DNA of 46,995 nt from Microcaldota archaeon (GTDB lineage: Archaea; Micrarchaeota; Micrarchaeia; Burarchaeales; JACRGF01), in the NCBI GenBank assembly GCA_016212395.1, contig JACRGF010000005.1, positions 1-46,995 on the forward strand, written 5' to 3'. Numbering within the stretch: position 1 is the first letter of the stretch; every line of letters starts with the position of its first letter. The notes below the pieces were generated by a model. That model was not told the DNA's origin. It ran no database searches and worked only from the letters and a program-made list of their open reading frames with translations. The position numbers were made by a program, and so were the translations under genes. Of the stretch, positions 1-35,941 are shown piece after piece.

Positions 1-985
1 AGAATTGCTTCAGCACTATGAAAACGTCTATGAGCGGGATTATTTCAGTGGGCACGTTCATGGGCGCGTTTTCAAGGCGCGTGACAGCGTCACGCGAGCT
101 GGAGGCATGAAGCGTGCCCATGCAGATTTTTCCGATGTTCATTGCAGTCATCAAGTCGCTTGCTTCAGCCCCGCGCACTTCACCGACGATTATCCTGCTC
201 GGCCGCATGCGCAGGCTGTTCTTCACCAAGCCAGCCATTGAAACGCTTTCGCTTGCCTCGAGGCGCGCGCAGTTCTCGTTCGTTTCAGTGTTAAGCTCAA
301 GCGTGTCTTCAATCACTACAACTCGCTCGTTCGGAGGCATGAAGGCAAACAACGCGTTCAGCAAAGTCGTCTTGCCGCTTCCGGGAGTTCCGGCGATGAG
401 AATGTTCGCCGGCTTCAAGCGCAGGCCGTCAGCGTAAAGCCACAATTGCGCGCCCAATGAATAGTTGAGCATTCCGGACTCAATCAAGTCTATTAGGCTG
501 AGAGGCTCGTGCCTGAATTTTCTAATCGTAATCTGCGGGCCCATTGGAGAGCTTGCGACATTCGCCCTGCAACCGTTAGGCAAGTGAAAATCGTTCAGCT
601 CCTCGAGCTTTTCCCTTCCTGAGAAAACGAGGAGTTTTTTTATGAACAAATTCAACTCTTCAAGCGAAGAAAACTTTTTGTTCGAGCGCGCCACTCCTTT
701 CTTTGAAGAGAAAGTAAACGCGGGCTTGAGCGCGTTCACCATAATGTCTTCAACGTCAGCGTCGTTCATGAACTCTTCCAAAATCCCGTATGATAGCACT
801 TCGTCAACTATTTTCTTTTTCTTGTCTTGCGAAATTTTTCCGAAAATTTCTTCAGCGAACTTTGAAACAAGCTGCTCCTGCTCTGCGCGCGACTGGATGA
901 AGGAAATCTTGCCAACGAGCTTTTTGAAAAGCTTTTCCATTCTCGTCTCTTCATCTGTTTTTACTGTTTCAATTTCAAGTTTCAA
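1..985 (-). CDS. CpaF/TadA-family secretion ATPase (partial, C-terminus beyond window)
   Basis: Cytoplasmic hexameric ATPase of the type II/IV secretion and type IV pilus class (GspE/VirB11/CpaF superfamily). About 328 residues are visible before the window ends. The N-terminal region holds the family pattern FMNDADVEDIMVN near residue 75 and GPQITIRKF. Walker A is GTPGSGKTTLLNA (about residue 205), followed by the acidic segment VVVIEDTLEL, the Walker B region RIIVGEVRGAEASD and the His box MGTLHAS. The usual NTGHDGS preceding the His box is altered to NIGKICM. The start is TTG at 985, placed by the Shine-Dalgarno GGTGG six bases upstream; it lies 10 nt after the stop of the upstream membrane gene, so it is the last visible cistron of the six-gene membrane-protein operon. 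The platform protein (TadC/GspF type) may follow to the left. The family call is firm; the machine it powers is inference. Confidence 0.9.
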   Translation of the reverse strand, partial: MKLEIETVKTDEETRMEKLFKKLVGKISFIQSRAEQEQLVSKFAEEIFGKISQDKKKKIVDEVLSYGILEEFMNDADVEDIMVNALKPAFTFSSKKGVARSNKKFSSLEELNLFIKKLLVFSGREKLEELNDFHLPNGCRANVASSPMGPQITIRKFRHEPLSLIDLIESGMLNYSLGAQLWLYADGLRLKPANILIAGTPGSGKTTLLNALFAFMPPNERVVVIEDTLELNTETNENCARLEASESVSMAGLVKNSLRMRPSRIIVGEVRGAEASDLMTAMNIGKICMGTLHASSSRDAVTRLENAPMNVPTEIIPLIDVFIVLKQF

Positions 986-995
986 AAAAACCACC

Positions 996-2141
996 TTAAA
1001 TCAGTTTTACCAGTCCTGACGCGAGTTCTGAAACATCAGCGCCGAACAAGTCAGCAAGAGCTTTCGTGACAGTAAAAGTAATTGTTAGCGCAACGAGCGG
1101 GTAGAGGAAAACTTCATGCATCAGGAACGGTATTATTTTTTCCACTCCAGTAAGCCATCCAGCTGCCTTGTTCGTGTTTTGACTGAGCCACAGCATCGCC
1201 CTAGCGAACGAGTCGAGGTCAGGGGAAGCGTCTTTCTGCGGAATGTACACGTTCGCAGAATCTCCTCCAAGCGTTTCGTACGCAACGCACGCAGCGCTCT
1301 CTATTCCAGTGGCAGGGAGTGCAGAGCCTGGCGCTGCGTGCTGTATTTGCCCGGCGTTAGCAGAGAGCACGAGAGTGAACGCTAGAGGGTAGAAAAAGTA
1401 CAATCCGATAGCAAGCCCTATCATCAGCGCTCCAGCGCCTCGCGTGAGCGGGAACGTGCGCAAAACTATTCCAACTGGAAGAAAGTACGCGAGCATAGTG
1501 TATTTTATCAAGACAAGCAATGCTTTCTGGAAGTAAATAGCAATGAACAAAAAGGAAAGGTTGTGCACTACAAAGTGCGAGAGGTTGACGAACGGGGCGA
1601 GAGCCCAGCCGCTCACTGAAAAAATTCCTCCAACGGAAAACTCGCTTTTCTCAACTACTTCAATGGGAAAGTTGATCGCGTAAAGCCGAGTGTACATTTT
1701 CTTCATGCACTTGAGCGCGCCGTACTCTCTGCCGACAATGCCGTCGGAAACACACTCGCTTCCAGCACAGCCTAAGTAAAACTGGGTTACTTCAAAAGGG
1801 TCGCCTCCTCTAAACTCTGCAGGAATGTTCGCGAGCGGCGCGCCTGTTGCTTCCAAGTCTGTTACTATCGCGCCTGTTTTTTCAAGCATTATGCCAACGA
1901 TTGAAGGCGAAGCTGAACTCAATGCTGCAACCAAGCCGAGCACGAGGATTGATGAGACTGCTGCTTGCACGAATTCCTGCCTTGACCAGCGCTTCAAGTT
2001 AGGCAAGTCGAAAGCAACTGAAAGCATGTACGCTATTGAAACAGTAAAGAAGGAAATGAGCACTGCGAGCAGAGCGTTCGCTTGCCATCCTGCACTCCAC
2101 GTGCTCATCAACGCGCTGACTGCACCGTCCATCCATGCCAA
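996..2141 (-). CDS. Polytopic membrane protein, paralogue 6 of the tandem array
   Basis: 381 residues, with TTG start at 2141 after a good GGAGGT (7 nt spacing). Hydrophobic segments lie near residues 18-40, 55-75, 190-220, 225-262 and 340-365. It shares four blocks with its neighbours: a Trp/Lys/Glu amphipathic loop between the first two membrane segments (LKRWSRQEF), a Pro-containing block (LAPFVNLSHF), the signature LPVGIVLRTFPLTRGAG near residue 221 followed by a Gly-rich membrane helix, and a C-terminal ITFTVTKALADLFGADVS tail ending VKLI. A loop with Cys pairs (GCAGSEC) precedes the third segment. Known families it may resemble are VirB6/TrbL/CedA channel proteins, but that is inference from topology and the adjacent ATPase. 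I do not recognise the family by name. Confidence 0.85.
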   Translation of the reverse strand: MAWMDGAVSALMSTWSAGWQANALLAVLISFFTVSIAYMLSVAFDLPNLKRWSRQEFVQAAVSSILVLGLVAALSSASPSIVGIMLEKTGAIVTDLEATGAPLANIPAEFRGGDPFEVTQFYLGCAGSECVSDGIVGREYGALKCMKKMYTRLYAINFPIEVVEKSEFSVGGIFSVSGWALAPFVNLSHFVVHNLSFLFIAIYFQKALLVLIKYTMLAYFLPVGIVLRTFPLTRGAGALMIGLAIGLYFFYPLAFTLVLSANAGQIQHAAPGSALPATGIESAACVAYETLGGDSANVYIPQKDASPDLDSFARAMLWLSQNTNKAAGWLTGVEKIIPFLMHEVFLYPLVALTITFTVTKALADLFGADVSELASGLVKLI

Positions 2142-2163
2142 ACGAATTACCTCCAAATAATCG

Positions 2164-3981
2164 CTAAATCATTCTAGTCAAGTTTGAAATATCCATTTCT
2201 TCCCCAAGAAACTTTGAAAGGTCCCGCACTAAGTTGATTATTAAAATCAAGTTTATAGTAGGGAGAATAAACGCAGTGACGAACAAAGTTATGGCGAGGT
2301 TAATCAAAGCACTCAACGCAACAGTCGTGCCTCCTATTATCACTGCAAAACCTGCACCCCAAGCAGCCCCGAGCAACAGCCCTGACTTGAAAGGCAGAGT
2401 CAACAGGTTCGCGTACATCAAGAAAATCGCGTTGGTTAAAAGACTGTTCAAAGCAAAACCGCCGGTGTTCTTTAAAATTGATGAAACGCTTGAAGCGCCA
2501 ACTCCAGAGTCGAAAGAACAAGTTGCATCTTCACTGCAAATTCCAGTGCACGTGCCAGTGCTCGCGCTCGCAGGGATTTTTTCGCAATACTTGCTTTCGC
2601 AGTCGTCATTGCTAGTGCAGGATGTTCTTCCCTCGCAAACTGCAGCGCCTCCAGGCAGGACTGCGCAACATTCGTCATTAGCCCTGCACGCTCCGCCTGA
2701 AACACTGCAAGGCTTGCACGCCCAATCGCTTCCTGAAGAATCAATCTCGCCTTTAGAATTGATTTTAACTTTCACGCCAGTGCAGCACTCTTTTTCAACC
2801 CCGGAAAAAGTGCCTGCAGTGTTTTTCTCGAGTTTTCCTGAAACAAGGCAAGGCTTGCACCAGCCCCGGTCAGAGCAAGTTCCGATCGCGCAACGGCCTT
2901 TGAAAGTGCCGTCGTGCGTGCCTCCAATGCAAGTGCACGTGCAAGGGCCAGTCTTGCATGAATGGTCATCATCGCACGCGCGGACAGGATCAGCACCAAC
3001 GCATTCTCTCGAGTAGCAATCACTGTCGATACTGCATTTAGCTCCGCCGCATCTTCCGTTAGGGCTGGTTGGGGAACACTCTGGAGAAAGCGGCTTTTTA
3101 CACGCATCTGGAGCTTTGGAGCAGCAGTCGCTTGCATATTGGCATGTTCCGCTTTCAAGAGCTTGGTCGGATAATTTGTCAGTAAAGTCTTTAGCTACTG
3201 CAGCGTTTATTCCAATTTCTACGGGGTAGAAGAAGAACAAGCCCAAGCCGAGCGCCATGAGCGCGCCTCCAAAACGCCTGGTTGGCTTGAAGCACCTGCA
3301 TACTACTCCAAGCGGAAGCCAGACGGTGAGTGAAGTGAGCATTACGAACTTTAAAATCTCGGCTTGAATCAAGTTCGTAATCCACGCGATAGTGAGCGCG
3401 TTCAACAACATTGAAAAACCGCTCAAGACCGAGCTCATGCCCGAGAACGGGACTGCGTTCGCGCCAATGCCTCCAGGGCTGTTTCCCTGGTAAAAGCTCG
3501 TCGCAAGAGCAACACGCCAGTAAACAATAAGCACGTGAACGTAACCGGAAATTATTTTCTCGTTCAGCCAATTCAAGTAAGAAAAGCAGACGTTGTACAA
3601 CCCGCTGATGCCAGCAGTTCCAGTGAGCGGAGTTATTCCAAGAAGCTGGGGGCCCAATTCATTGCACATCAAGCTCGCAACCCACACTGCATTAGCTACA
3701 ATCACGAGCGAAACCGCTGTTTGGTAGAAGTCGTCTTTCGCTCCAACAACCAAATCAGGCTTCTGGAGAATCTCGCCAACCATGTAAAACAACGCGACGA
3801 GGAAAAAACCAATCAAGCCTCCGATGAGCGAGTAAGTGACCCAGTCGCCCCACAACCCGTGGCCGCAAACATGGTCGCCACGCAAGTCGCTTGGAATCGC
3901 GCTCGAGATAGTGTCACGGCTGCCAATACAGCCGGAAAAGAACACTAATGCCACTGCCAACAGCCAAAATTTTTGGTTCAT
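2164..3981 (-). CDS. Cys-rich polytopic lipoprotein-like membrane protein, paralogue 5
   Basis: 605 residues. It starts with a lipoprotein-type signal (MNQKFWLLAVALVFFSGC). The shared array blocks follow: the amphipathic loop before the second segment, a Pro/Ser block (AVPFSGMSSVL), and the signature LPLGVVCRCFKPTRRFGG with its Gly-rich helix. About 200 residues then carry roughly 35 cysteines, many in CxxDxxC-type pairs (CSIDSDCYSREC, CTSNDDCESKYC), before the final membrane segments and the C-terminal tail GEEMDISNLTRMI. The Cys-rich domain sits exactly where paralogues 1-4 and 6 have shorter or unrelated extracytoplasmic loops, so it is probably a surface-exposed disulfide-bonded insertion. 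Start ATG has GGAG upstream. Function unknown; a subunit of the same apparatus is inferred from the operon. Confidence 0.85.
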   Translation of the reverse strand: MNQKFWLLAVALVFFSGCIGSRDTISSAIPSDLRGDHVCGHGLWGDWVTYSLIGGLIGFFLVALFYMVGEILQKPDLVVGAKDDFYQTAVSLVIVANAVWVASLMCNELGPQLLGITPLTGTAGISGLYNVCFSYLNWLNEKIISGYVHVLIVYWRVALATSFYQGNSPGGIGANAVPFSGMSSVLSGFSMLLNALTIAWITNLIQAEILKFVMLTSLTVWLPLGVVCRCFKPTRRFGGALMALGLGLFFFYPVEIGINAAVAKDFTDKLSDQALESGTCQYASDCCSKAPDACKKPLSPECSPTSPNGRCGGAKCSIDSDCYSRECVGADPVRACDDDHSCKTGPCTCTCIGGTHDGTFKGRCAIGTCSDRGWCKPCLVSGKLEKNTAGTFSGVEKECCTGVKVKINSKGEIDSSGSDWACKPCSVSGGACRANDECCAVLPGGAAVCEGRTSCTSNDDCESKYCEKIPASASTGTCTGICSEDATCSFDSGVGASSVSSILKNTGGFALNSLLTNAIFLMYANLLTLPFKSGLLLGAAWGAGFAVIIGGTTVALSALINLAITLFVTAFILPTINLILIINLVRDLSKFLGEEMDISNLTRMI

Positions 3982-4006
3982 GAAACTCCACTCTGATTTT
4001 ATTTCT

Positions 4007-5197
4007 CTAAATTATTCTCGTTAGCGCGGAAATGTTCACGTCTCCTCCGAGTATTTTCGCGAGCTCTCGCGTGAACGTCAAAGTTATTACGAGGCTTATG
4101 AAAGGCATTATAAAGCCGAGAATGATGAGGAACCACAGCACTTCAGGAGCAAGCGAGAACACGATTGGAAGGAAAATAAACACTGATTTGCTTGACCACA
4201 TGAACATCCAGAACACTACAGCGCCGAAACCTTCCCACATGCCTCGCGACGGGCTGTTGGTAATGTCTTCGTAAAGCGCTCTGAACGTTGCTCCGGCAGC
4301 ATGAAGCGAACACTGCCCCAAATCACTCCAGTTTAGAATAGCGCAGTGGTTGACGAGCACTTGAATGCTCAAATAGTAAGTGAGAGGAAACACTATGTAA
4401 AACCCGAGAGCAATAGCAATCATCGCGCTTCCTCTCGAGCGCGTGAACGGGAAAGAACGAAGCACTATTCCAATTGGCAGGAACAACGCCAGCATTTTTT
4501 CCTTGATGAACCCGATCAACGCCATTTGCCCGTAAAGCCCAGCCAAGCCAATGCCCAAAGCATTCAACAGCATTCCGTTCGCGTCCATGATGGGCCTGAG
4601 GACAACGGCAGGCTGGAACCTGAAGCCCACCCTGCTCGGCATGAGCGATAAAGTCATTGAAGCCCACTGCCCGAAGCCCATGTTAAGCCGGCTGAAAAAC
4701 AAGTATTCTCCAAGCAAAAGGTTTCTTGAAACGTCCAAATACCCCTCGGCAACGCTGAAAGCAGTCGGGTGCTCGGAGTCGTTGAGTACGCTGTGAGTTA
4801 TTCCGGAAAGCATCAACCCGCTTAGAATGTCGCTCGCGTTCACTACCGCGAAAGCAGCGCCGATTATAATTGCAGTCGCGAGCACTTGAAACAACTCGTT
4901 CTTGCCCCACGCGAACAACTCGCGGAAGTTCAACGCGAACGCGAAGCCCATAATCAAAGCAACAATCATGAAGACAAGCACGAGAGCTGCAAGCGAAACT
5001 TGAACCCAGTCAGCAACTTGCATTTCGCAAATTTCCGTTTCGTAGTTCGCGCGCAAGCCTGGACAGCAAATACTTTGCGGGTCGTTTGGATTAAAGTTAG
5101 CCCCATTATCACTGCACGGAATAACTGCTCCAGCGCAACCGCTGAGTGAAAACAACAGGCAACTGATTGCAAGCAATGCAAGCAAATTTTTATTCAT
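4007..5197 (-). CDS. Polytopic lipoprotein-like membrane protein, paralogue 4
   Basis: 396 residues from ATG 5197. Upstream in-frame codons back to 5236 would overlap the preceding gene and spoil the signal peptide. The N-terminus MNKNLLALLAISCLLFSLSGC is a lipoprotein-type signal with lipobox. After a short exposed segment with CSDNGA and ICCPGL come two membrane helices around the loop FRELFAWGKNELFQVLATA. The array signature follows: LPIGIVLRSFPFTRSRGSA, a helix ending PLTYYL, a short outer loop with two Cys, and the terminal tail LTFTRELAKILGGDVNISA then LTRII. It is closest in pattern to paralogues 3 and 6. It is co-transcribed with tight spacing (20-40 nt). Role inferred only from the neighbours and the downstream ATPase. 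Confidence 0.85.
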   Translation of the reverse strand: MNKNLLALLAISCLLFSLSGCAGAVIPCSDNGANFNPNDPQSICCPGLRANYETEICEMQVADWVQVSLAALVLVFMIVALIMGFAFALNFRELFAWGKNELFQVLATAIIIGAAFAVVNASDILSGLMLSGITHSVLNDSEHPTAFSVAEGYLDVSRNLLLGEYLFFSRLNMGFGQWASMTLSLMPSRVGFRFQPAVVLRPIMDANGMLLNALGIGLAGLYGQMALIGFIKEKMLALFLPIGIVLRSFPFTRSRGSAMIAIALGFYIVFPLTYYLSIQVLVNHCAILNWSDLGQCSLHAAGATFRALYEDITNSPSRGMWEGFGAVVFWMFMWSSKSVFIFLPIVFSLAPEVLWFLIILGFIMPFISLVITLTFTRELAKILGGDVNISALTRII

Positions 5198-5232
5198 GGA
5201 AACCAATTCCAAACAAAACCAATCAAAACAAT

Positions 5233-6387
5233 TCAAATTAATCTCGTCAAGCCTGCTATTTCAACGTCTCCTCCAAGCAAGGGGGAGAGGACTTTAATGA
5301 ATGAAATCGTGAGCACGAGTGAAACGAACGGGACGAACGTGGTGAACACTAAGAGCCTGCCCACGCGGTCGAACAGCCCTCCTGTATCCATGAGCAAGTC
5401 TCCGTTCACCCAATTCCACATGCTTGAAGCAAGGCCAGCCTGGTTGGTCTGCATGATGATGCGGTCGCCAGTGCGGGAGTTAGGCTGGAAAGTGTAAGTG
5501 CCGAGGTCGTCAATGTCTGATTGTTTTACTTTAAACAGCCAGTTTCCAACGCAAGGCTTGGAGTAATCATAAGCTCCAGTAGCGTCCAGGCACGTTGAGT
5601 AAATCGCGTCTTTCGCGAAAACGTAGGAAAGCGGGAACACGAAGTACAAGCCGAGCGCGATCGCGATCATCAAGCCTCCGAGCTTGCGCGTGAAGAAAAA
5701 AGTTCGGCAGAGTATGCCTATGCACATGAACGACGGGAACAAAGCGGTTTGGACTAGCTTCAGCACGTACTGCTGTGCTTTCACGAGCATCATTATCTTC
5801 ATGAGAGAGTCAAAGCAGATGGTCAAGCTGTTTGAAATCATTGAAGTGCCTGCAAAAGGAGTGAAGCTGAACGAGTACCACGGAGGGTTGATTGACTCGA
5901 CGAACAAGTTCATTCCGGACATTATGAGGAACCACGTGTTCAACTGGAGAATGTTCTTGTTCATTTCGCGCACGTCGCTGTAAATAGACTTCAGCATTTT
6001 CTGGCCGAGCTCGATAGGGCAGTCTTCAGGCTGGCTGCAGCCGAGCGTGCTGCCGAAGGAATCAAACGTCAACTGGTTTATAGTGGTTATGAAGAACAAG
6101 ACGTTCGCGACTATCAAGCCTGTCGCGAGCAGTTGGCCGAACTCGCTCTTGCTCCACGCGAGCAACTCCTTGTGGTTGATGATGGACGCGCCCATGTACA
6201 TGAGCACTGCAACGAAAGTGGAAATGAGCATTGCAGCAAAAATCGCGGTCTTCCACTGGAAGAACATGAAATTGAAAATTTGCGCGCCGTTGAAAACCGG
6301 AAACCCTCCGCCAGCGCCAATGCTCACGCAACCAAAGGAAAAAAACAATGCGGACAACGCCAGCAGTGAAAACAGTTTCAAACGCAT
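5233..6387 (-). CDS. Polytopic lipoprotein-like membrane protein, paralogue 3
   Basis: 384 residues from ATG 6387 (MRLKLFSLLALSALFFSFGC, lipoprotein-type signal). The reading frame stays open upstream to 6621, but that stretch translates a repetitive spacer into Cys/Phe/Val repeats and is not believable protein; no clear Shine-Dalgarno marks 6387. Shared blocks: the loop HKELLAWSKSEFGQLLATG, the Pro-Ala-Gly block FSFTPFAGTSMISNSL, the signature GILCRTFFFTRKLGGL, a helix ending FPLSYVF, an outer loop with two Cys, and the tail SPLLGGDVEIAGLTRLI. In this copy the Leu-Pro that opens the signature elsewhere is replaced (LFPSFMCIGILCR). Operon member; function inferred from context. Confidence 0.83.
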   Translation of the reverse strand: MRLKLFSLLALSALFFSFGCVSIGAGGGFPVFNGAQIFNFMFFQWKTAIFAAMLISTFVAVLMYMGASIINHKELLAWSKSEFGQLLATGLIVANVLFFITTINQLTFDSFGSTLGCSQPEDCPIELGQKMLKSIYSDVREMNKNILQLNTWFLIMSGMNLFVESINPPWYSFSFTPFAGTSMISNSLTICFDSLMKIMMLVKAQQYVLKLVQTALFPSFMCIGILCRTFFFTRKLGGLMIAIALGLYFVFPLSYVFAKDAIYSTCLDATGAYDYSKPCVGNWLFKVKQSDIDDLGTYTFQPNSRTGDRIIMQTNQAGLASSMWNWVNGDLLMDTGGLFDRVGRLLVFTTFVPFVSLVLTISFIKVLSPLLGGDVEIAGLTRLI

Positions 6388-6655
6388 ACGAAACAACTCG
6401 TTACTCTTGCAAACGCATACAACCAAACACTCACGAAAACAACATGAACAAAACAACTTCGAACAACAAAAAACCCCGCAAAACAATTCACGCAAGCAAA
6501 CGACGCATACAACCAAACACTCACGAAAACAACACGCAAAACGATTTTCACGCGAAAACTTTTTTTGTTCATGCACACTCAAAACGATTTTCGCGCGCGA
6601 GCAAGTTTTCTTCACACGCAAACAACAATAATCTCGAAATACTTTTTTTCAGATT
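6388..6655. repeat. Repetitive A/C spacer inside the operon, with a 32-bp direct repeat
   Basis: 6413-6444 and 6503-6534 are identical over 32 bases (90-bp period), with further degenerate copies of CGCATAC and ACGATTTTC. It is G/T-rich on the transcript. No protein is credible here. Confidence 0.75.
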
Positions 6656-7609
6656 TCACCCGAATTTCATTATCAATTCTCTGTTGAGGGCTTTAATGAA
6701 TGTTATTGTTATCACCATTGACATTGACGGCAGGAACAACGCTTGCGGGATGATGTGCGCAATTGTTACGAACGCGTTGCACATTTGGTTGAATATTACA
6801 CTCGTGAAAATTATGAATGCAGGGTCTGGAGTTGGCGCGACGAGCGTGTAGTAGCACGCGTCGAATATCCTGAACATGCCGTCAGGAGCGTTCAAGTCAT
6901 GCCACAACACTTGCTGTGCGCGGTCGTACACGGCGTAAGTGAGCGGGAGTATTATGAACAAGCCGAACGCAGTGGCTATCGCGAAAGCGCCTGCCTCGCG
7001 CGTTGGAGAGAAAACGCGCAAGAGAATGCCGACAGGCAAGAGGATAGTGAAGGCAGTTGCCTGAATAAACTGAAGCCCTAACTGCTGTGCGAAAAGGCTG
7101 GAAACAAAGACAGGCACGAAAGTTTCAATAACTCCAAGCGAACTTTCAATTCCCTTAAAGCCAGCAAGAGGGTTGTACGAATAACCCCACGAAGGCTGAG
7201 CAACTTGAACAGTATAACTCGAGTACATTTCCGCGTACACTTGCAGAGTGATTAACGCCTTCAAGGATTCAGTCGCAAGGTTGCTAACGCGCGCCAAGTA
7301 CTCGTTCGCAACTTCAAAATGGCCGACGTCAGTGCCAGTGCCTGCCTTTCCCGAAAGTTGGGTGGCAAGCGTGCACGCAACTCCTGAAGCGAACAAGCAG
7401 TTCGCGAGAAGAAAACAAGAAATTACCGCCTGCCAAATTTCCATTCGCACGTAAGCTTCCCAATCCGCGCGCTTGAATAAACGCGCAGCCATGAACATCG
7501 CGCCGAGAATAATGAGCACTGCGAGAACAGCAGTGCGGATAGCCCCGCCCATGGCTCCGCCACCAGCAGGGTCAATAAACACGTCCAAAGGCGCGCAATA
7601 CGACGGCAA
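6656..7609 (-). CDS. Polytopic membrane protein, paralogue 2 (lacks conserved C-terminal tail)
   Basis: 317 residues from TTG 7609, with a G-run nine bases upstream; a start 19 codons further in (MGGAIRT) is possible. It has no lipoprotein signal. The blocks are present: loop ADWEAYVRMEIWQAVISC, Pro-Leu-Ala-Gly block YSYNPLAGFKGI, signature LPVGILLRVFSPTREAGA followed by a helix ending ILPLTYAVYD, then the last membrane segment VITITFIKALN. The protein stops at RELIMKFG, so the GGDVxIxxLTRII-type tail found in the four typical copies is missing. It is the shortest of the six. Spacing to paralogue 1 upstream is 45 nt of C/A-rich spacer. Whether the tail loss reflects specialisation or truncation cannot be told from sequence alone. 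Confidence 0.82.
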   Translation of the reverse strand: MPSYCAPLDVFIDPAGGGAMGGAIRTAVLAVLIILGAMFMAARLFKRADWEAYVRMEIWQAVISCFLLANCLFASGVACTLATQLSGKAGTGTDVGHFEVANEYLARVSNLATESLKALITLQVYAEMYSSYTVQVAQPSWGYSYNPLAGFKGIESSLGVIETFVPVFVSSLFAQQLGLQFIQATAFTILLPVGILLRVFSPTREAGAFAIATAFGLFIILPLTYAVYDRAQQVLWHDLNAPDGMFRIFDACYYTLVAPTPDPAFIIFTSVIFNQMCNAFVTIAHIIPQALFLPSMSMVITITFIKALNRELIMKFG

Positions 7610-7654
7610 AACAAACTACCCCCAAAACCACAAAACTACTAAACTCCAAAACCA

Positions 7655-9448
7655 TCATATTATTTTACTCAACCCGGCAAGGCTTGATTCTCCTCCGAGC
7701 GATGTTGAAATGCTTCTGAAAAACGTTATTGAAATGATTATCGAAACCACAGTAAGCACGAGGACGAAAGTCGTTTTCGACATTACGACAGGCAAAGACC
7801 ACGACGGGTCTGTAATAGCAATCCCATTGGCAGTAAGCGAAGTGTAACAGCTTGAAGAAATGTCGTTGACTAGCACGTCGTCGCAAGTGAGAAAATCATA
7901 GGCAGTGCTGACCATGAAGTTCGGGCTCAGCAAGCCCAACGCGCTGGAGCCGAGGTTTAACGCTGAACCGAAAATCTGCTTTATCGGAATGCCGACTGAA
8001 CTCGCCAACCCGCCGGCAGACCAGCCTGAAGCCCGCTTCAGCCAGTCAACAAAACTCCAATGGCCAGCAGGCTCGACTACTTTCACAGTGCAGCGAGACT
8101 CGTCAGTAACATCAAAAGTAGAGCCGGGGATGAGTATAGAGTCTTCCGCCCACTTTATTTTTACAGTCACGTTGTACTCTCCGAGTTCTTCAAACTCGCC
8201 AGTGCACTCTTTAGGCAAGTAATCGTCGTTAAGGAAAATGCCTTTGCAATCTTCAGAACCAAGAAGAGGAGGCCAGTCGTAAGGAGATTCGGTTGCGAGA
8301 ACAGGAGTTGTAGGCATGTAAGGCGGGTAAGGCCCGGCAGCATCCCCTACTTTCGTAACGTATACTTCGTAAGTGCCGGCAATCATTTCACTGACATCCC
8401 CGTCGCCATCATCGTCAAAAATGTCAGCTTGAGGCGTTGCTTTAGGAGCAGCAATAGTGAAAATAAAAGGGTAGTCCGCGTCTTTTTCAAGAGTTTTGCT
8501 GGGGCAGTTGAGGAAGACTTTCGGAAACGCGTCCGCAGCATCCGCACCGTTCAGGTTTGCAGCTGCTTGGTAATCCTCGAAAGTGCTTCCAGTATTAGTG
8601 AACTCGTACTTGTCTAAATTCAACGCGTGCAAGCCATGCTCGTACATTCCCTTGTCAAGCGCGAGAGTAAGCGGGTAGACGACGTAGAGCGCGATGCAGA
8701 ACGCGATCATTGTAGAGCCTAGCCTGCGAGTGATTGGGAAAGTGCGCAGCAAAAGCGAAAATGGAAGAAGCAGGGTAATCACGCTGTTTTTCACAAAGTC
8801 AAGCAAAGCAATTTGAGCCCACAAGTTGATCAAGACAACCGCGATAAAATCAGCTATAGTTACCACTGCGTTGGTAACCTGGCCCAAGCCAGCGAGAGGC
8901 GAAAACCCAGTGCCCCACAACGCCATGCCACCTACTCCGAAGAATGGGATGTGGAAGGAAGTGCCGATAGAACCGAGAGTTCCCATTGACGCGTCGAACA
9001 CGAGCAAGCGCAGGTAAGTGACTTTCAAATCATCAAGCGTTTCGTTCAAGTACTCTTCGCCGACTTGAATGTGAGTCTTGCCGTGCGCTACGAGAGGCGA
9101 AACAAAATTGTTCATCACTAAAAGGCTTGCAATGACAGCGCCGAAAATAACTGCTGACACTGCAACTTCGTACAACTCGCGCTTCACCCACGCGTTCAAC
9201 TCAGGAGAACGCAGGAACTCGGCAAGCATGTACGCAATCGCGATAATGAAAAAAGAAATGAGCAGAGAGAGAACGCCAGGAGCCCAAAAATTCGCGCTCC
9301 CGCCCCAAAACAACGTCAAGCCCTCGCGAAAACAAGCCTCGAAAGGATTGGAATACGCTGAACAAGCGTCGATGGCGCGGGAGAGGCACTCTTGCGTTGA
9401 AATGCTGCCACACGATGCTGAAATCGGAGTATACACCAACCAGTTCAC
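7655..9448 (-). CDS. Polytopic membrane protein with large outer domain, paralogue 1 (operon head)
   Basis: 597 residues from GTG 9448. The frame extends to GTG 9472, but the TATA box at 9472-9483 predicts transcription starting near 9450, so the inner GTG is preferred and is nearly leaderless. An exposed Cys-containing N-terminal segment precedes two helices around the loop LNAWVKRELYEVAVSAVIF, the block GTGFSPLAGLGQV and the signature LPFSLLLRTFPITRRLGST. A roughly 170-residue extracytoplasmic insertion with a calcium-loop-like DDDGDGDVSEM and a beta-rich tail (YNVTVKIKWAED) comes next, then the final helices and SLGGESSLAGLSKII. First gene of the six-paralogue operon. The insertion is unrelated to the Cys domain of paralogue 5, although it sits at the same point. 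Confidence 0.84.
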   Translation of the reverse strand: MNWLVYTPISASCGSISTQECLSRAIDACSAYSNPFEACFREGLTLFWGGSANFWAPGVLSLLISFFIIAIAYMLAEFLRSPELNAWVKRELYEVAVSAVIFGAVIASLLVMNNFVSPLVAHGKTHIQVGEEYLNETLDDLKVTYLRLLVFDASMGTLGSIGTSFHIPFFGVGGMALWGTGFSPLAGLGQVTNAVVTIADFIAVVLINLWAQIALLDFVKNSVITLLLPFSLLLRTFPITRRLGSTMIAFCIALYVVYPLTLALDKGMYEHGLHALNLDKYEFTNTGSTFEDYQAAANLNGADAADAFPKVFLNCPSKTLEKDADYPFIFTIAAPKATPQADIFDDDGDGDVSEMIAGTYEVYVTKVGDAAGPYPPYMPTTPVLATESPYDWPPLLGSEDCKGIFLNDDYLPKECTGEFEELGEYNVTVKIKWAEDSILIPGSTFDVTDESRCTVKVVEPAGHWSFVDWLKRASGWSAGGLASSVGIPIKQIFGSALNLGSSALGLLSPNFMVSTAYDFLTCDDVLVNDISSSCYTSLTANGIAITDPSWSLPVVMSKTTFVLVLTVVSIIISITFFRSISTSLGGESSLAGLSKII

Positions 9449-9471
9449 CTGAAGAAAAAAATTCCCTTGCA

Positions 9472-9483
9472 CTATTTATATAG
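9472..9483. promoter_or_regulatory. Symmetric TATA box shared by divergent genes
   Basis: CTATTTATATAG is nearly its own reverse complement. Its centre is 27-29 nt from the plus-strand Nudix ATG (9506) and from the minus-strand GTG (9448), the archaeal TATA-to-start distance in both directions. Neither start has a convincing Shine-Dalgarno sequence, so both messages are probably leaderless and one TATA box may serve both genes. Confidence 0.65.
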
Positions 9484-9505
9484 TTGCTGTTTTAAATTCC
9501 CTTTC

Positions 9506-9970
9506 ATGCAGGAATTCTCGTCAGGCGCAGTAGTCTACAGGCTGGAGGAAGGAAAGCCTCTTTACCTCATACTCCACTACGAGGAAAGGCACTGGGACTT
9601 TCCGAAAGGAAAAATCGAGGGAAGCGAAACACTGCTCGAAACCGCGAAAAGAGAAATAAAAGAAGAAACAGGAATAACGCAACTCGAATTCGACGAGCAA
9701 TTCAAAGAAAAAATAACGTACTTCTACAAGCACGCTGGAAAAACAATATTCAAGCAAGTAGACTTCTTCCTCGCGCGCACGACGCAAGAACAAGCAACGC
9801 TTTCAAGCGAACACACTGAAAGCGAGTGGCTTGAATTCGAAAAAGCGCTAGAACGCTTGACGCACGAAAACGCGAAGCAACTGCTCAAAAAAGCAAATGA
9901 ACTAGTAAAACAAAAAAAAATAGAAACAACAAACACGCAAACAAAAAATGAGCAAACAACACGAAAATAA
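9506..9970 (+). CDS. Nudix hydrolase (diadenosine tetraphosphatase-like)
   Basis: 154 residues from ATG 9506. Complete Nudix box: G-KIEGS-E then seven residues and REIKEETGI (about residues 38-60), which binds Mg2+ and hydrolyses nucleoside diphosphates linked to a moiety X. The N-terminus (SSGAVVYRLEEGKPLYLIL, then HWDFPKGK) is typical of the bis(5'-nucleosyl)-tetraphosphatase group, which removes Ap4A. The C-terminal 30 residues are Lys/Thr/Gln-rich and grade into the A/C-rich spacer, so the natural end may once have been earlier. It is transcribed divergently from the membrane-protein operon through one TATA box; there is no functional link beyond position. Substrate not provable from sequence. 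Confidence 0.9.
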   Translation: MQEFSSGAVVYRLEEGKPLYLILHYEERHWDFPKGKIEGSETLLETAKREIKEETGITQLEFDEQFKEKITYFYKHAGKTIFKQVDFFLARTTQEQATLSSEHTESEWLEFEKALERLTHENAKQLLKKANELVKQKKIETTNTQTKNEQTTRK

Positions 9971-10196
9971 ACTAACAACAAGCGCGCGGAAAGCAAACGA
10001 GCAGACAAACACGCAGAAAATACCACTGGAAAAAAAGCATGCTCAAAAACAAGCGGCAACAACACACGAACACGCGAAAAAAACAGCACGCGACAAACAA
10101 AAACGAACGCACGACACAAGCAGAAAACGCAAACAAACGAAAAAAAAGACGCGCGCACGAACACGCAACCGCATACAGCGAAAAACAAAAAATTAA
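9948..10196 (+). CDS. Possible small Lys/Arg-rich ORF (doubtful)
   Basis: An 82-residue frame overlapping the last 23 bases of the Nudix gene. It is almost entirely Lys, Arg, Thr, Gln and His with no hydrophobic core or recognised motif, and it lies in an A/C-rich spacer of the kind found elsewhere in the window as non-coding DNA. No Shine-Dalgarno is visible. It could be a disordered nucleic-acid-binding peptide, but composition alone explains the open frame. Confidence 0.2.
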   Translation: MSKQHENKLTTSARKANEQTNTQKIPLEKKHAQKQAATTHEHAKKTARDKQKRTHDTSRKRKQTKKKTRARTRNRIQRKTKN

Positions 10197-10224
10197 TTAA
10201 ATACTGGAGTGCTAAGTGATTGCT

Positions 10225-10812
10225 ATGGGAAGGAAACGAGGTCAGGCAGCCATTGAGTCGGCTACGCCGACTGCTCGCGTCTTGCGAGGTCAAGCCGCGA
10301 TGGAGTACGTCATTACTTACGGTTGGGCTTTAGCCTTGCTCGTAGTGGCATTGACTGTCTTGTACAGTTTGGGAATTCTTAACCCTGCGCGTTATCTTCC
10401 GCAAGAATGCTCTTTCTCGCCCAGCGTGAACTGCGAGTATTACAGGATAGAGAGAGTGTCAGGCACGCAGTACAATTTGAAAGCAGGGTTTACGAACGGC
10501 TTGGGGTTTAAAATAAAACTGAAAGAATTGGCAGTAGCGAGCGATGGAACGCTTGGAACAGCAGGAGGCTTTGGATGGCAGAAGGGATTGAATCTTTACA
10601 GTTTTTCTTCAACTGAAATAATAAACGACGGAGAACAGTTCAACTTGACTGCGAGCTTCACGCCAGTGTCAGGCCCGTCTGTAGGCTCGCTCGAGAGGAT
10701 ACGGGCAACGCTCACGTACTGGAACTGCGACGCAGTGGACTGCAATGACGCTGGCGCGCCGACGCACGTTGTTTCAGGAAGGATAAACACGAACGTAGAG
10801 CCGATGAGTTAA
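10225..10812 (+). CDS. Class III signal peptide (type IV pilin-like) protein with duplicated processing site
   Basis: 195 residues from ATG 10225, which lies about 26 nt after TTAAATA; GTG 10216 with GGAG upstream is the alternative. An archaeal prepilin signal is present twice: RKRGQAAIES, then 16 codons later VLRGQAAMEYVITYGWALAL. Only the second is followed by the hydrophobic stem needed for pilin assembly, so cleavage by an EppA/PibD-type peptidase before that Gln is expected. The mature part is a beta-rich domain with two Cys pairs (ECSFSPSVNC; NCDAVDC). The segment between the two signals encodes two short DNA hairpins (10256-10272, 10274-10288). It is probably a major or minor pilin; the pilin cluster at 19-23 kb and the ATPase at 1-985 are likely partners. 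Confidence 0.85.
   Translation: MGRKRGQAAIESATPTARVLRGQAAMEYVITYGWALALLVVALTVLYSLGILNPARYLPQECSFSPSVNCEYYRIERVSGTQYNLKAGFTNGLGFKIKLKELAVASDGTLGTAGGFGWQKGLNLYSFSSTEIINDGEQFNLTASFTPVSGPSVGSLERIRATLTYWNCDAVDCNDAGAPTHVVSGRINTNVEPMS
10237..10306. repeat. 22-bp imperfect direct repeats flanking two hairpins inside the pilin gene
   Basis: Copies at 10237-10258 and 10285-10306 match at 18 of 22 positions with an in-frame 48-bp period. Between and overlapping them are AGTCGGC-TAC-GCCGACT (10256-10272) and CTCGC-GTCTT-GCGAG (10274-10288). The arrangement looks like an in-frame insertion or duplication around a small palindrome. Confidence 0.6.
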
Positions 10813-11003
10813 CCGAACGTTTGGACTGCGGGGCACGAGTTGTTGAAAGCGAGAAGGCTGTGAACTCCGAGCCTGAAAGTTAGCAGGAAGCGCGAGTTGC
10901 TGCAAGCGAAAAGGCTGCGAACATCGAGCTTGCTTAAAAAAGACGCTTGTTTTTTCTCGTGGCGTGAAAGTTTTTTAAACCTCTCGCGAGCATTAGTAAT
11001 CGC
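10813..11003. repeat. Spacer with 40-bp imperfect direct repeat and SMC promoter
   Basis: 10833-10872 and 10890-10929 match at 33 of 40 bases (57-bp period), and no gene fits. Further right, TTTTTTAAAC (about 10970-10979) lies 27 nt before the SMC ATG and is its probable TATA box. Confidence 0.6.
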
Positions 11004-14000
11004 ATGAATAAAGGCGATTCAGTCGAAGCGATGGAACAACCCCGAGAGGAGAAAATAACGGGGAACGGAAAGCCGTTTATTGCTAGGCTGAAGGCGCGAA
11101 ATTTCAAGTCTTTCAGGTCAATAGACTTGCCCATGCCCCACGGGTTCGTTTGCCTCACTGGGCCAAACGGTTCTGGAAAGAGCAACTTCCTCGACTGCAT
11201 TCGTTTTGCTTTGGGCGAGACGAGCTTGAAGGCGATACGCTCTAAGAAGGTGAACGACTTGATTTCGAGCGGGGCGCGCGCTGCAGTCATTCACTTGTTG
11301 CTTGACAATGACGGGAAGCAGATTGAAGTAAAGCGCGCTATTCGAGAAGACGGGAAGACTTTGTACAAGCTGAATGGGAAGAGGATGACGCGCATTGCAG
11401 TGATGGATTCGCTCAAGCCAATGGGAATGGAGATCGGCTCTCACAACGTTATAGCGCAAGGTGAAGTTGAAAGAATTATTCACATGAGCCCAAAGGAACG
11501 CAGGGAGATTATTGACGGAGTTGCAGGCATAAGCGATTTCGAAGAAAAAAAGAAGGAGGCGTTGCGCGAGCTTGCAGTAGTCGAAACGAAAATCAACGAC
11601 GCGTCCATAGTTTTAAAGGAACGGGAAGGCTACTTGCTGGAGTTGGAGCGCGAGAAAGAGGAAGCGATAAAGTACAACGGGTTGAAAGGCGAGCAGAGAA
11701 AATTAAAGGCAAGCGTGCTTCACATGGAGCTTGTGAAAGTAGAAAAGGATTTCACGCGCGCTGCTGAAAAGCATGTTGAGCTTGAAAGCCAGTCAGGCGC
11801 CATGCAAAGCGAGGCGGAAAAGCTGGGCCAGCAAGTGGCAAAGCTTTCAAGCGAGAAAGAGCAAGTGGTGAACGGAATAAACGATTTGGGCGCGCGCAAC
11901 AAGGCGTTCGCCGAGACGCAGGAGTTGAAGTCCGCGATTGGGATGGACGAGAACAACTTGAACTTGAAGAAAGCAGAAGCAGACAGGCTCGGGAAACGCG
12001 CTGAAACGCTCGAGAAAGAAAGAAAAACGCTGAGCGAAAAAGCAGGCGCGTGGAGTTCAGAGAACAGGAAGCACGCAGGCGAGCTGGCATCACTCAAAGC
12101 TGAAGCAGCGAAAATCGAGAGCCACTTGGAGACTGCTGAAAAGTCTGCGAAAGAAAAGCAAGGCGAGGCGACAAAGCTTCAGAATGCTGTTGAAAAACTT
12201 TCAAGAGAAACAGAAGCAGAAAAAGACTTGCTGAGGGAAGCAGAGTTTGAAGTTGCGACTTCAAGGGAACTGCTCGCGAGCAAGAACAGGGAGCTTGAAA
12301 GGCTGAAGTCTGAATTTACTGCAAGCACGAAAACAAGCGGGCTGGAAAGCCAAATAGGCGAGCTTCAGGAAGAGCAAAAAAGCTTGACGAGAGAACTCGA
12401 CGACTTGTTCAAGAAAGAGAGGGAGTTGAACAAGCAGGGAGTTGAAGTTGACGGGGAAGTGCTTCGCGCGAAGGAAGAATGGGCAACGTTGAAAGTAGTC
12501 GCGGGAAAAACAACGCTCAACTCGGGATTGGACTTGGTAAAGCAGTTGAAAGAAAAAAACGTTGTTGATGGAATTTACGGGACTGTGGAGGAAGTGTGTT
12601 CGTTCGCGCCAGAGTACGCGATTGCAGTTGAAGCTTCAGCAGGGAACAGGCTGAATTATGTAGTGGTTGAAACTGTCGACGACGCATCGCAGGCGATAAG
12701 CCACTTGAAGCAGAAGAAAGCTGGAAGGTGCACGTTCATTCCGTTGCAGAGGAGCGTGCGCGCAATAGACGCTGAAACAATGAAAGTAGTAAAATCTCCT
12801 CACGCGCTCGGGCTGTTGATGGACTTCGTGAAGTTTGACGCGCGCTTCGCACCGGCAATGAATTACGTGTTCGGAGACACTGTGCTCGTGCGGGACATTG
12901 AAGCGGCAAAAAAAGTGGGCATTGGGAAAGCGCGCATGGTGACTTTAGACGGAGACTTGATTGAAACAACAAGCGTGCTCACAGGAGGATTTTTCAAGAG
13001 CAGGATGAACTTGAAGGAAAAAAAACAGCTCGAGAAAGTGGAGGAACAGCTCGCGGAATTAAAAGCAGAACAGCAGAAAGTGATCGACTCGCTTTACGAA
13101 TTGCGCGAGCGCATGAGCTTGAAAAGGCGCGAGCGTTCAGAGCTTGAAGTGAAAATGAAGGGATTCGAGATAGAACTGAAGGGAATTGCAGACAAGAGCG
13201 AGGCGGACAGAAAAAGAACAACAGCAATGGGAGAACTTGAGAAGGAAGCGCGCAAGCTCTCTGAGAAAATAGCGCAGAAAGAAGGCGAGTTCAAGCACGC
13301 GAAAGAAAAACTGTCTAAACTCGAAGCGGAAAAAACAAGGCTGAAGGCAAGCCTTGAGCAAGCAACGCAGACTGAAGACGAAAAGAAAGTAATAGAACTC
13401 AAGGAAAAAGTCGCTGAATTAAAGAACGCAGTGAGGGAAAAGGAAACTATTCTAGGCGGGAAAGCCACTGAAATAAGCGTTCTTGAAACAAGGCTCGCGA
13501 ACTTGAACAGTGAACTTGCGGAGTTGAAGAAGGAGGAGAAGAGCATTGAAAGCGAAGCGAAGCAACTCAACACGCGCTTGGGCGAGGCGAGGAAAGCGCT
13601 TGAAAAGAAAGAAGAGGAACTGCGCACTGTAAGCACCAAGATGGAAAAGCTGTTCGCGCGCAGGGACACGCTCAACAAGGAAATAGACGTAGTGTCAGTG
13701 GAGAAAGGAAAAATTGACGCGCAACTCTCGAAGATAAGGGAGGATAAAATAAGAGTGGAAACGCAGAAGAGCGTGCTCGAACAGCGCTTAGTTGACTTCA
13801 AGTCGGAATATGCTGCTTTCGAGGGAGTTGAAGTGGTTGAAGGAAAAAAGAATGAAATGGAGGCGCGCCTGCTTGAAGCGGAAAAAGAACTCGAATCGCT
13901 TGGAATGGTGAACTTGCGCGCTCCTGAAATATATGAAGAGAAAAAGAAGGACTTGGAGGAAGTGAAAGGGAAAGTGGAGAAGCTGGCAGAGGAAAAAACA

Positions 14001-14483
14001 GCAGTAACCAACATGATTGACGAGATAGAAGCGAAAAAGACAGCGATATTCCACGAGACGTTCAGCAAAGTGAACGAAAACTTTAAGCGCTTGTTCAACT
14101 ACGTGTTCAAAGGCGCAGGCACGCTGTTATTGCAAGACCCGTACAACGTGTTCAACTCAGGCTTGATGATTAAAGTGACTATAGACGGGAAGGAAAGGTA
14201 TATTGAAGCGATGAGCGGAGGGGAAAAAAGCCTGCTCGCGCTGTTGTTCGTGTTCAGCATTCACATGCACCACCCGGCGCCATTCTACATTCTCGACGAG
14301 GCTGAAGCGTCGCTCGACAAGCTGAACAGCAAGCGCCTCGCGGACTTGCTGAAAGAACTAAGCAAAGACACGCAATTTATCGTCGTGAGCCACAACGACG
14401 TGGTAATATCGAACGCGGACATTGCCTTCGGAGTAACGAGAACTGAAGACGGAAGCAAAATCGTGGGAATAAACCTGAAATAG
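11004..14483 (+). CDS. smc: Chromosome segregation protein SMC
   Basis: 1159 residues, full family length. Walker A GPNGSGKS at residues 53-60 heads the N-terminal ATPase half. Long heptad-rich coiled coils run from about 170 to 500 and 665 to 1000. Between them is a hinge (about 507-660: NVVDGIYGTVEEV through GCR-type folds to LTGGFFKS) that dimerises the protein. The C-terminal half has the ABC signature MSGGEKSLLALL (about 1069) and Walker B FYILDEAEASLD (about 1093), then the switch His in VVSHND. SMC dimers extrude DNA loops and compact or segregate chromosomes together with ScpA/ScpB-type kleisin partners, which are not in this window. ATG 11004 is 27 nt from the TATA box, so it is leaderless. 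N-terminal residues 1-23 precede the usual SMC start and look like an unstructured extension. Confidence 0.97.
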   Translation: MNKGDSVEAMEQPREEKITGNGKPFIARLKARNFKSFRSIDLPMPHGFVCLTGPNGSGKSNFLDCIRFALGETSLKAIRSKKVNDLISSGARAAVIHLLLDNDGKQIEVKRAIREDGKTLYKLNGKRMTRIAVMDSLKPMGMEIGSHNVIAQGEVERIIHMSPKERREIIDGVAGISDFEEKKKEALRELAVVETKINDASIVLKEREGYLLELEREKEEAIKYNGLKGEQRKLKASVLHMELVKVEKDFTRAAEKHVELESQSGAMQSEAEKLGQQVAKLSSEKEQVVNGINDLGARNKAFAETQELKSAIGMDENNLNLKKAEADRLGKRAETLEKERKTLSEKAGAWSSENRKHAGELASLKAEAAKIESHLETAEKSAKEKQGEATKLQNAVEKLSRETEAEKDLLREAEFEVATSRELLASKNRELERLKSEFTASTKTSGLESQIGELQEEQKSLTRELDDLFKKERELNKQGVEVDGEVLRAKEEWATLKVVAGKTTLNSGLDLVKQLKEKNVVDGIYGTVEEVCSFAPEYAIAVEASAGNRLNYVVVETVDDASQAISHLKQKKAGRCTFIPLQRSVRAIDAETMKVVKSPHALGLLMDFVKFDARFAPAMNYVFGDTVLVRDIEAAKKVGIGKARMVTLDGDLIETTSVLTGGFFKSRMNLKEKKQLEKVEEQLAELKAEQQKVIDSLYELRERMSLKRRERSELEVKMKGFEIELKGIADKSEADRKRTTAMGELEKEARKLSEKIAQKEGEFKHAKEKLSKLEAEKTRLKASLEQATQTEDEKKVIELKEKVAELKNAVREKETILGGKATEISVLETRLANLNSELAELKKEEKSIESEAKQLNTRLGEARKALEKKEEELRTVSTKMEKLFARRDTLNKEIDVVSVEKGKIDAQLSKIREDKIRVETQKSVLEQRLVDFKSEYAAFEGVEVVEGKKNEMEARLLEAEKELESLGMVNLRAPEIYEEKKKDLEEVKGKVEKLAEEKTAVTNMIDEIEAKKTAIFHETFSKVNENFKRLFNYVFKGAGTLLLQDPYNVFNSGLMIKVTIDGKERYIEAMSGGEKSLLALLFVFSIHMHHPAPFYILDEAEASLDKLNSKRLADLLKELSKDTQFIVVSHNDVVISNADIAFGVTRTEDGSKIVGINLK

Positions 14484-14581
14484 AAGTAGGGAATGCGAAC
14501 TGCGCAAAACTATTTCGTCGTTTTATTGCATGCCAGCGCTTTCGCTCGTTTTTTAATTGTTTTCAGTGAATGAGTTTGTTC

Positions 14582-15604
14582 ATGAACAGGCTGAAACGTT
14601 TTTTTGATTTGAGTGAAGTCGACGCGCTCGTGCTCGCGAACGGAGACGCAGCGCGCGAAGCAGACTCGAACTTTTCCTATTTCTCTGGAGTGGAATTGGA
14701 CAACAGCATCCTCATATTGAAGCCGAAGGAAAAAGTGCTTCTCGTTTCACCTTTGAATTTCGAGCTTGCGAAAGAAAAATTTTCCGGGAGAATCGAAAAA
14801 TTCGAGCGCGGGAAAGCTTGGAGGAAGGCAGAAGAATTCTTGCGCAATGAAAAAAAAATCGGGTTGAATTTTGACTCGGTTACTCTGCGCGCGTGGAAGA
14901 AAATGCGCGGGCTGCGCGGGAAAGCAACAGACGTTTCAAAGCAACTGCTTGAACTGCGCGCTGTGAAAGAAGAAAACGAAGTGGAAAAAATAAGGAAAGC
15001 AGTGAGAATTGCGGAAAGAATATTGAGGGAAGCGGAAAACGATTTGAAGGTTGGAGCAAGCGAAAAGCAAGTCGCGGGCAGTTTGAAAAAGCGTGCGCTT
15101 GATGAAGGAGTTGAAGTTTCTTTTGAGCCTATTGTTTCTTTCGGGAAAAACACGCGCTTCCCGCACTCGAAGCCGACTGGAAAAAAACTGGCGCGAGGCG
15201 AACACGTGCTGATAGACTTTGGAGTGAGAGTGGGCGGGTACTGCTCTGACTTGGCAAGATGCTTTTTCCCAGCAAGCGGAAGAGGGGAAGCGGAAAAAAC
15301 TTACGAGGAATTGAAGGAAGTGATGAAGGAGATTGCTAGTTTTATTCGCCCTGGAGTTGAAGCAAGCGAAGCTGCAAAATACGCGAACAAACTGATAATC
15401 AAAGCGGGATTCCCGAAAATGATTCACTCGCTCGGGCACGGGGTTGGGCTGCAAGTGCACGAGTCCCCGAAAATAAGCGTGAAAAGCAAAGACGTTTTCC
15501 GAAAAGGGATGGTGTTCGCGCTTGAGCCTGCTGTTTACACTGAAAAATTCGGGGCAAGGTTTGAAGAAAACTTTTTCATAAGGAAAAAAACAGAAAAAAT
15601 ATAA
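14582..15604 (+). CDS. M24 metallopeptidase, Xaa-Pro aminopeptidase-like
   Basis: 340 residues from ATG 14582, placed 27 nt after TTTTAATT; ATG 14570 would add four residues. An N-terminal creatinase-type domain (1-125) precedes the pita-bread catalytic domain. Metal ligands are visible in order: Asp in VLIDFGVRVGG, Asp in YCSDLAR, His in HSLGHGVGLQVHE, Glu in FALEPAVY and Glu in RFEENFFI. These bind two divalent metals that activate water to cut the bond before proline. It is cytoplasmic and probably acts in peptide turnover. The family is clear; whether it is an aminopeptidase P or a prolidase cannot be decided. It lies 98 nt after smc with its own promoter, so co-regulation is unlikely. 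Confidence 0.9.
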   Translation: MNRLKRFFDLSEVDALVLANGDAAREADSNFSYFSGVELDNSILILKPKEKVLLVSPLNFELAKEKFSGRIEKFERGKAWRKAEEFLRNEKKIGLNFDSVTLRAWKKMRGLRGKATDVSKQLLELRAVKEENEVEKIRKAVRIAERILREAENDLKVGASEKQVAGSLKKRALDEGVEVSFEPIVSFGKNTRFPHSKPTGKKLARGEHVLIDFGVRVGGYCSDLARCFFPASGRGEAEKTYEELKEVMKEIASFIRPGVEASEAAKYANKLIIKAGFPKMIHSLGHGVGLQVHESPKISVKSKDVFRKGMVFALEPAVYTEKFGARFEENFFIRKKTEKI

Positions 15605-35857: not shown

Positions 35858-35941
35858 TGTTTAAACACCTTAAATGCCATCATTTTATTTTTCCATTTTG
35901 CTTTCCAGTTGTTTTCTTTTCCACGTTGTTTTGTCTTTGTT

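Follow-up and report, generated by a model that had tools for sequence, protein, structure and literature searches.

VirB6 is among the least understood components of type IV secretion systems (T4SSs), and the opening of its channel is debated. In the R388 (Trw) system VirB6 is a homo-pentamer that is thought to carry the five-start pilus, and the motor is six-fold (PMC9259494). The rvh T4SS of Rickettsia, a bacterial system with VirB8-B11, contains five VirB6 paralogs (rvhB6a-e) that are diverged, extended and furnished with large flanking domains (PMC2653234). Patescibacteria, which include epibionts with small genomes, possess a minimal T4SS whose loci hold arrays of pilin genes (PMC12102498). 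The archaeal Ced/Ted systems of Thermoproteota (CedA/CedE, CedA1/TedC and CedB/CedD) combine a VirB2-like pilin and a VirB4/HerA-type ATPase with a polytopic CedA-type protein. A relation through a pilin-like hairpin has been reported for CedA and CedA1 (PMC9905601), and CedA together with CedE suggests a two-part hetero-oligomer (PMC11868833).

The window, by which we mean the whole 46,995-nucleotide stretch of DNA analysed, is contig C18 of a 67-contig, 1.37 Mb genome from Micrarchaeota. This phylum of very small archaea is known mostly from metagenomes. The window carries six consecutive genes (p1-p6, Table 1) that we propose, with a probability of roughly 60%, to encode the VirB6/CedA-like membrane channel or pilus platform of a minimal archaeal T4SS of the Ced/Ted type. 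A search of mainly open-access journal papers found no description of such a system for Micrarchaeota. With the subunit family present in 143 of 156 sampled genomes, the phylum would gain a near-universal machine for transfer or contact. Six distinct subunits of conserved order would also let stoichiometry and subunit roles be deduced from genome sequences and probed one gene at a time.

Table 1. Features of the array and its surroundings in the window.
Feature	Positions	Strand	Remarks
Whole six-gene array	996-9472	minus	consecutive genes
p1, subunit 1, 605 aa	7655..9472	minus	p1 profile 338 bits, runner-up 163
p2, subunit 2, 317 aa, compact	6656..7609	minus	sole position lacking the C-terminal GGD..LxRhh tail
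p3, subunit 3, about 384 aa	5233..6387	minus	ORF opens at 6621
p4, subunit 4, 409 aa	4007..5236	minus	modelled structurally
p4 signature block LPIGIVLRSFPFTRSRGS, residues 253-270; as LPIGIVLRSFPFTRSRGSA	4424..4480	minus	kink between two long helices
p5, subunit 5, 605 aa	2164..3981	minus	cysteine-rich insert, probably extracellular
p6, subunit 6, 386 aa	996..2156	minus	
T2SSE-family (CpaF/TadA/VirB11-like) ATPase	2..994	minus	truncated by contig end
Archaeal type IV pilin-like gene	10216-10812	plus	class III signal sequence (GQAAMEYVITYGW); on the opposite strand, close upstream of the array
secD/secF-like pair	34259-37099	minus	

The initial annotation had described six tandem paralogous membrane-protein genes on the minus strand, and this description was borne out, as one iteratively built profile matches all six (E <= 1e-61). 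The array begins at position 996 as proposed; its end, given as 9448, lies 24 bases further, at the first GTG. The signature block that had been noticed in these proteins was found again, for example in p4, as was the C-terminal tail in five of the six, with p2 as the exception. An ATPase of the T2SSE family does adjoin the array and runs off the end of the contig. We placed the start of p3 on the basis of the profile and an M-R-L-K-L-F-S signal sequence; its N-terminus is lipobox-like. In p1 a large variable insert separates the signature helices from the last helix, at a site equivalent to that of the cysteine-rich insert of p5 (residues about 270-500). The p5 proteins of most other arrays lack an insert this large there.

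With p4 as the query, the other five array members were recovered from the window genome with E-values of 4.9e-19 to 4.5e-11; E-values of our scripted searches refer to small sets. The same query recovered a second six-gene array on contig C67 and one lone copy on contig C33. The second array (locus L009, 237-8697) belongs to a different sub-lineage, and pairs of arrays from two sub-lineages occur in other genomes too. It is adjoined by a divergently transcribed gene (8864-15355) for a 2163-aa coiled-coil protein with a signal sequence. The lone copy (locus L010, 10305-11856) is strongly diverged and is preceded by a gene for a 125-aa pilin-like protein, with which it possibly forms a third, minimal system in this genome.

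Comparison across Micrarchaeota, the one phylum surveyed, revealed that the number and order of the subunits are fixed. Each of the 35 full arrays contains six genes, and profiles specific for each position read p1-p2-p3-p4-p5-p6 in all of them. These profiles were trained on 18 arrays of six genes from the window genome and its relatives; the 17 held-out arrays, whose loci were found solely by way of the adjacent ATPase family, follow the same order (17/17) with a smallest margin of 12 bits over the next position. In one array (L055) a frame break cuts p5 in two. Arrays of five or seven were absent from those examined, the lone copy being the only alternative form. A tree of the core region from 18 arrays gave every position its own clade (p2-p6, 18/18; p1, 17/18) free of intruders from six-gene arrays. 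In a tree of 34 arrays p2, p3, p5 and p6 were monophyletic, and the largest pure clade of p1 and of p4 held 18 of the 34. Identity is about 22% between positions within one array and 29% at the same position between arrays; the diversity of an alignment of 16 p4 proteins was too high for pattern scans. The six paralogs are much more than a local duplication, and the idea of six diverged, obligatory subunits gains support.

The genes of the arrays run head-to-tail with a median spacing of 0 bp; 92% of the spacings fall within 30 bp and 43% of the junctions overlap. Divergence at one position is mirrored at the others (r 0.90-0.94 against a permutation maximum of 0.30), to which shared species history contributes. 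None of the 36 p2 proteins examined ends in the tail noticed earlier, which is widespread, though variable, elsewhere. Long inserts of up to about 580 aa are found mainly at the N-terminus, shortly after it or ahead of the last helix; p3 has a further site after helix 2. A recent local duplication was rejected, since every position has its own lineage, and so is an assembly artefact, given 35 arrays from many genomes, some of them complete.

In many genomes the array is part of an operon with the order: VirB2-like pilin gene or genes (family c2), p1-p6, two genes of family c1, c3, genes for small proteins, c7 and c8. The complete genomes of Ca. Fermentimicrarchaeum limneticum (CP058998) and Ca. 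Micrarchaeum A_DKE (NZ_CP060530) contain this operon together with its array. In many loci family c2 is represented by one to three proteins that resemble pilins (about 104-126 aa), and in some loci by none within the stretch retrieved. The best PDB match of its profile is TrwL, the VirB2 pilin of R388, at a weak E-value of 0.0096, and its match to T4SS_pilin/TrbC in Pfam is likewise weak and below the cut-off. Family c3 is an ATPase of about 510 aa from the HerA/VirB4 superfamily that adjoins arrays in loci of the Fermentimicrarchaeum type and of Micrarchaeaceae. Its profile lies nearest to CedD (5.7e-18) and CedB (4.7e-16), both under NCBIfam's own cut-offs, and matches in the PDB the VirB4-like structure 4ag5 (3e-15) and the HerA-type 8wiv (4e-19). 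Family c8 proteins have about 800 aa and an N-terminal signal or anchor. Two loci (L037 and L039) hold an equivalent operon with one paralog and one c1, in which the single paralog sits between pilin and c1.

Family c1 consists of membrane-anchored proteins of about 275 aa in which a TM hairpin is joined to a domain resembling the N-domain of VirB4. Compared with PDB sequences, the c1 profile yielded chance matches only. The predicted c1 structure (pLDDT 87) found as its top Foldseek match chain 7o41_B of the R388 inner-membrane complex (probability 0.99, E 0.022), which we read as VirB4 from the size of the chain and the title of the entry. This model weakly indicates a VirB4 N-domain fold. 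Because of the structural match, VirB4 seems to be split in Micrarchaeota into an N-domain protein (c1) and a separate motor (c3).

The subunit family and c1 occur in 143 and 144, respectively, of the same 156 genomes. Their presence agrees in 155 (12 genomes lack both) and is discordant in one, in raw counts that ignore phylogeny. This co-occurrence, like the fixed number and order, the operon linkage, the family of the ATPase and the weak pilin similarity, is read directly from sequence. It counts against our reading that arrays of the window's own lineage show no linkage to the pilin/VirB4 locus; in the window genome three copies of c2 together with c1, c3, c7 and c8 lie on contig C37 (locus L138) without paralogs, and both arrays lie elsewhere. 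The function of the arrays could have diverged, since there are two arrays per genome and one VirB4-like locus. An intein that includes a LAGLIDADG endonuclease domain (Intein_splicing 5e-16, LAGLIDADG_3 5e-9) interrupts the VirB4/CedB-like ATPase gene at L138 (2665-5829, plus strand).

Structural analysis of the subunits was performed with p4. In the predicted structure (pLDDT 76, rising to 88-96 over the greater part of the helical core) long helices form a bundle, with a kink at the signature block. Foldseek found no significant match for it in the PDB (E 0.71). The R388 stalk chain 8rtd_L (268 residues), possibly TrwI/VirB6 to judge from its length and from the presence of TrwI in entry 8rtd, ranked third of 198 at the same non-significant E of 0.71 and had the best query-normalised TM-score among the 50 best of these matches. 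When array profiles were aligned by hhalign with ten plasmid VirB6 proteins, P ranged from 0.025 to 0.33, which is not significant; the best match of the all-position profile, also not significant, falls on the signature block. None of the six belongs to any Pfam family, VirB6/TrbL being absent at E <= 1, and their profiles found nothing in the PDB. The sole lead in NCBIfam is a weak match of p1 to CedE, the CedA paralog of Saccharolobus (E 0.0026). The N-terminal hairpin of each subunit resembles the pilin (P 1e-4 to 9e-4; controls from other families mostly 0.1-0.6, one at 0.004). The models weakly suggest a VirB6-like fold. A virus-borne element was considered and set aside: viral contigs contain no relative of p4 and only remote relatives of the ATPases, so there is no sign of such an element, and Foldseek found nothing for the p4 model among viral models.

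The Micrarchaeota operon resembles Ced/Ted in being archaeal and in its VirB2-like pilin, its ATPase of the CedB/CedD kind and its CedA-like polytopic protein with a pilin-like N-terminal hairpin. It differs in having six CedA-type proteins rather than one or two and in dividing the ATPase between two proteins, a short one with the N-domain and another with the motor; the sequence similarity is only weak. Counterparts of VirB2, VirB4 and VirB6 are proposed as in R388, whose presumed VirB4 chain is closest to the c1 model; unlike in R388, no homo-pentameric VirB6, outer-membrane complex, VirB11 or relaxase was found linked to the arrays. The likeness to the rvh system, drawn from its published description, lies in diverged, extended VirB6 paralogs, whereas their number there is five (four in Ehrlichia), with one copy missing from one Rickettsia genome. 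The statement of the initial annotation that no described system has this many tandem copies is only marginally right; six exceeds five, but the five VirB6 proteins of Rickettsia are a precedent (PMC2653234). The minimal T4SS of Patescibacteria is bacterial and its arrays are of pilins, not VirB6. What distinguishes the Micrarchaeota case is that the number six is strict, that the order holds across the phylum and that the system is archaeal.

We infer that the six VirB6/CedA-like subunits, whose divergence is ancient, would each contribute one copy to a hetero-oligomeric ring or dome within the cytoplasmic membrane; that they act in a single complex is suggested by arrays that are complete, ordered and tightly packed. 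VirB2-like pilins would be assembled on, or threaded through, this platform, which a VirB4/CedB-like hexameric ATPase may drive from the cytoplasm, held by the TM-anchored VirB4-N-domain-like proteins. The large inserts, which lie at the N-terminus or ahead of the last helix and vary with position and lineage, probably face outward and may contact a partner cell. The idea, put forward at first, of a secretion or pilus system with a multi-subunit, VirB6/CedA-like membrane part gains support; its link to the CpaF/TadA ATPase does not. Since VirB6 of R388 is pentameric (PMC9259494), six does not follow from known geometry. A stricter version, to which we give slightly less than even odds, is an obligate, phylum-wide hetero-hexamer with one copy of each subunit in a fixed position and a symmetry matched to the six-fold ATPase instead of the five-fold pilus. 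Such a ring would be asymmetric by design, because p2 never carries the C-terminal tail of the others.

DNA is the most likely cargo by analogy with Ced, and is favoured because the relatives of the ATPase are CedD/CedB and HerA. The system may instead be an adhesive or protein-delivery pilus for contact with host cells, which we regard as unlikely yet a serious contender, and which rivals our reading in its cargo part only. Cultivated DPANN archaea depend on host-cell contact (PMC11291902), genes for large surface proteins come after the VirB4-like locus, and in Patescibacteria, where T4SS loci have pilin arrays, virB6 is essential in an epibiont (PMC12102498). Against this stands the profile proximity of the ATPase to DNA-import CedD/CedB and to HerA, which does not settle the cargo.

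The six could also be alternative subunits, each building a homo-oligomeric channel or platform that has its own outward domains and serves certain partners or conditions. The strong variability of the inserts by position and lineage and the homo-pentamers of R388 and Dot/Icm (PMC9259494, PMC12857230) would fit this arrangement. We think it improbable: with genomes of ~1 Mb, alternatives would be expected to disappear and change places independently of one another, and we found 0/35 partial arrays, a fixed order, near-zero spacing and mirrored divergence. It is very unlikely that the six stem from some unrelated membrane protein, such as a transporter or surface-layer anchor, that was expanded in this lineage and happens to sit in a T4SS operon. 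The lack of significant homology to any named family is consistent with such an origin, but presence and absence follow c1 even where the two are unlinked, a single-copy version occupies the same place in the equivalent operon, and the subunits carry the pilin-like hairpin.

The initial annotation had tied the array functionally to the CpaF/TadA-type ATPase and asked whether this ATPase always follows. It follows only in the window among the arrays examined. Its orthologs in relatives of the order (54-62% identity) stand alone among unrelated genes with no T2SSF (TadC/GspF) neighbour, and six genomes with arrays (G007, G009, G011, G012, G014 and G015) have no close full-length ortholog. As other arrays lack it and its orthologs are solitary, we judge it an incidental neighbour outside the conserved system, in which the linked motor is, by its sequence, of a different type, VirB4/CedB/HerA. 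A Tad/type IV pilus-like or VirB11-driven system made of array and CpaF/TadA ATPase is therefore largely refuted and highly improbable, despite their adjacency on one strand in the window and a T2SSE gene that directly follows a VirB2-like pilin gene at another locus (L090). A conserved linkage to T2SSE and T2SSF, as in a Tad/CpaF or archaeal type IV pilus system, was not found. The pilin and VirB11/CpaF-like ATPase genes at L090 (20286-21521) lie about 5 kb from the c1-c3-c7-c8 operon. The secD/secF-like pair of the window has a homologous pair at L040 (7907-10761, minus strand), located directly downstream of p6 of an array.
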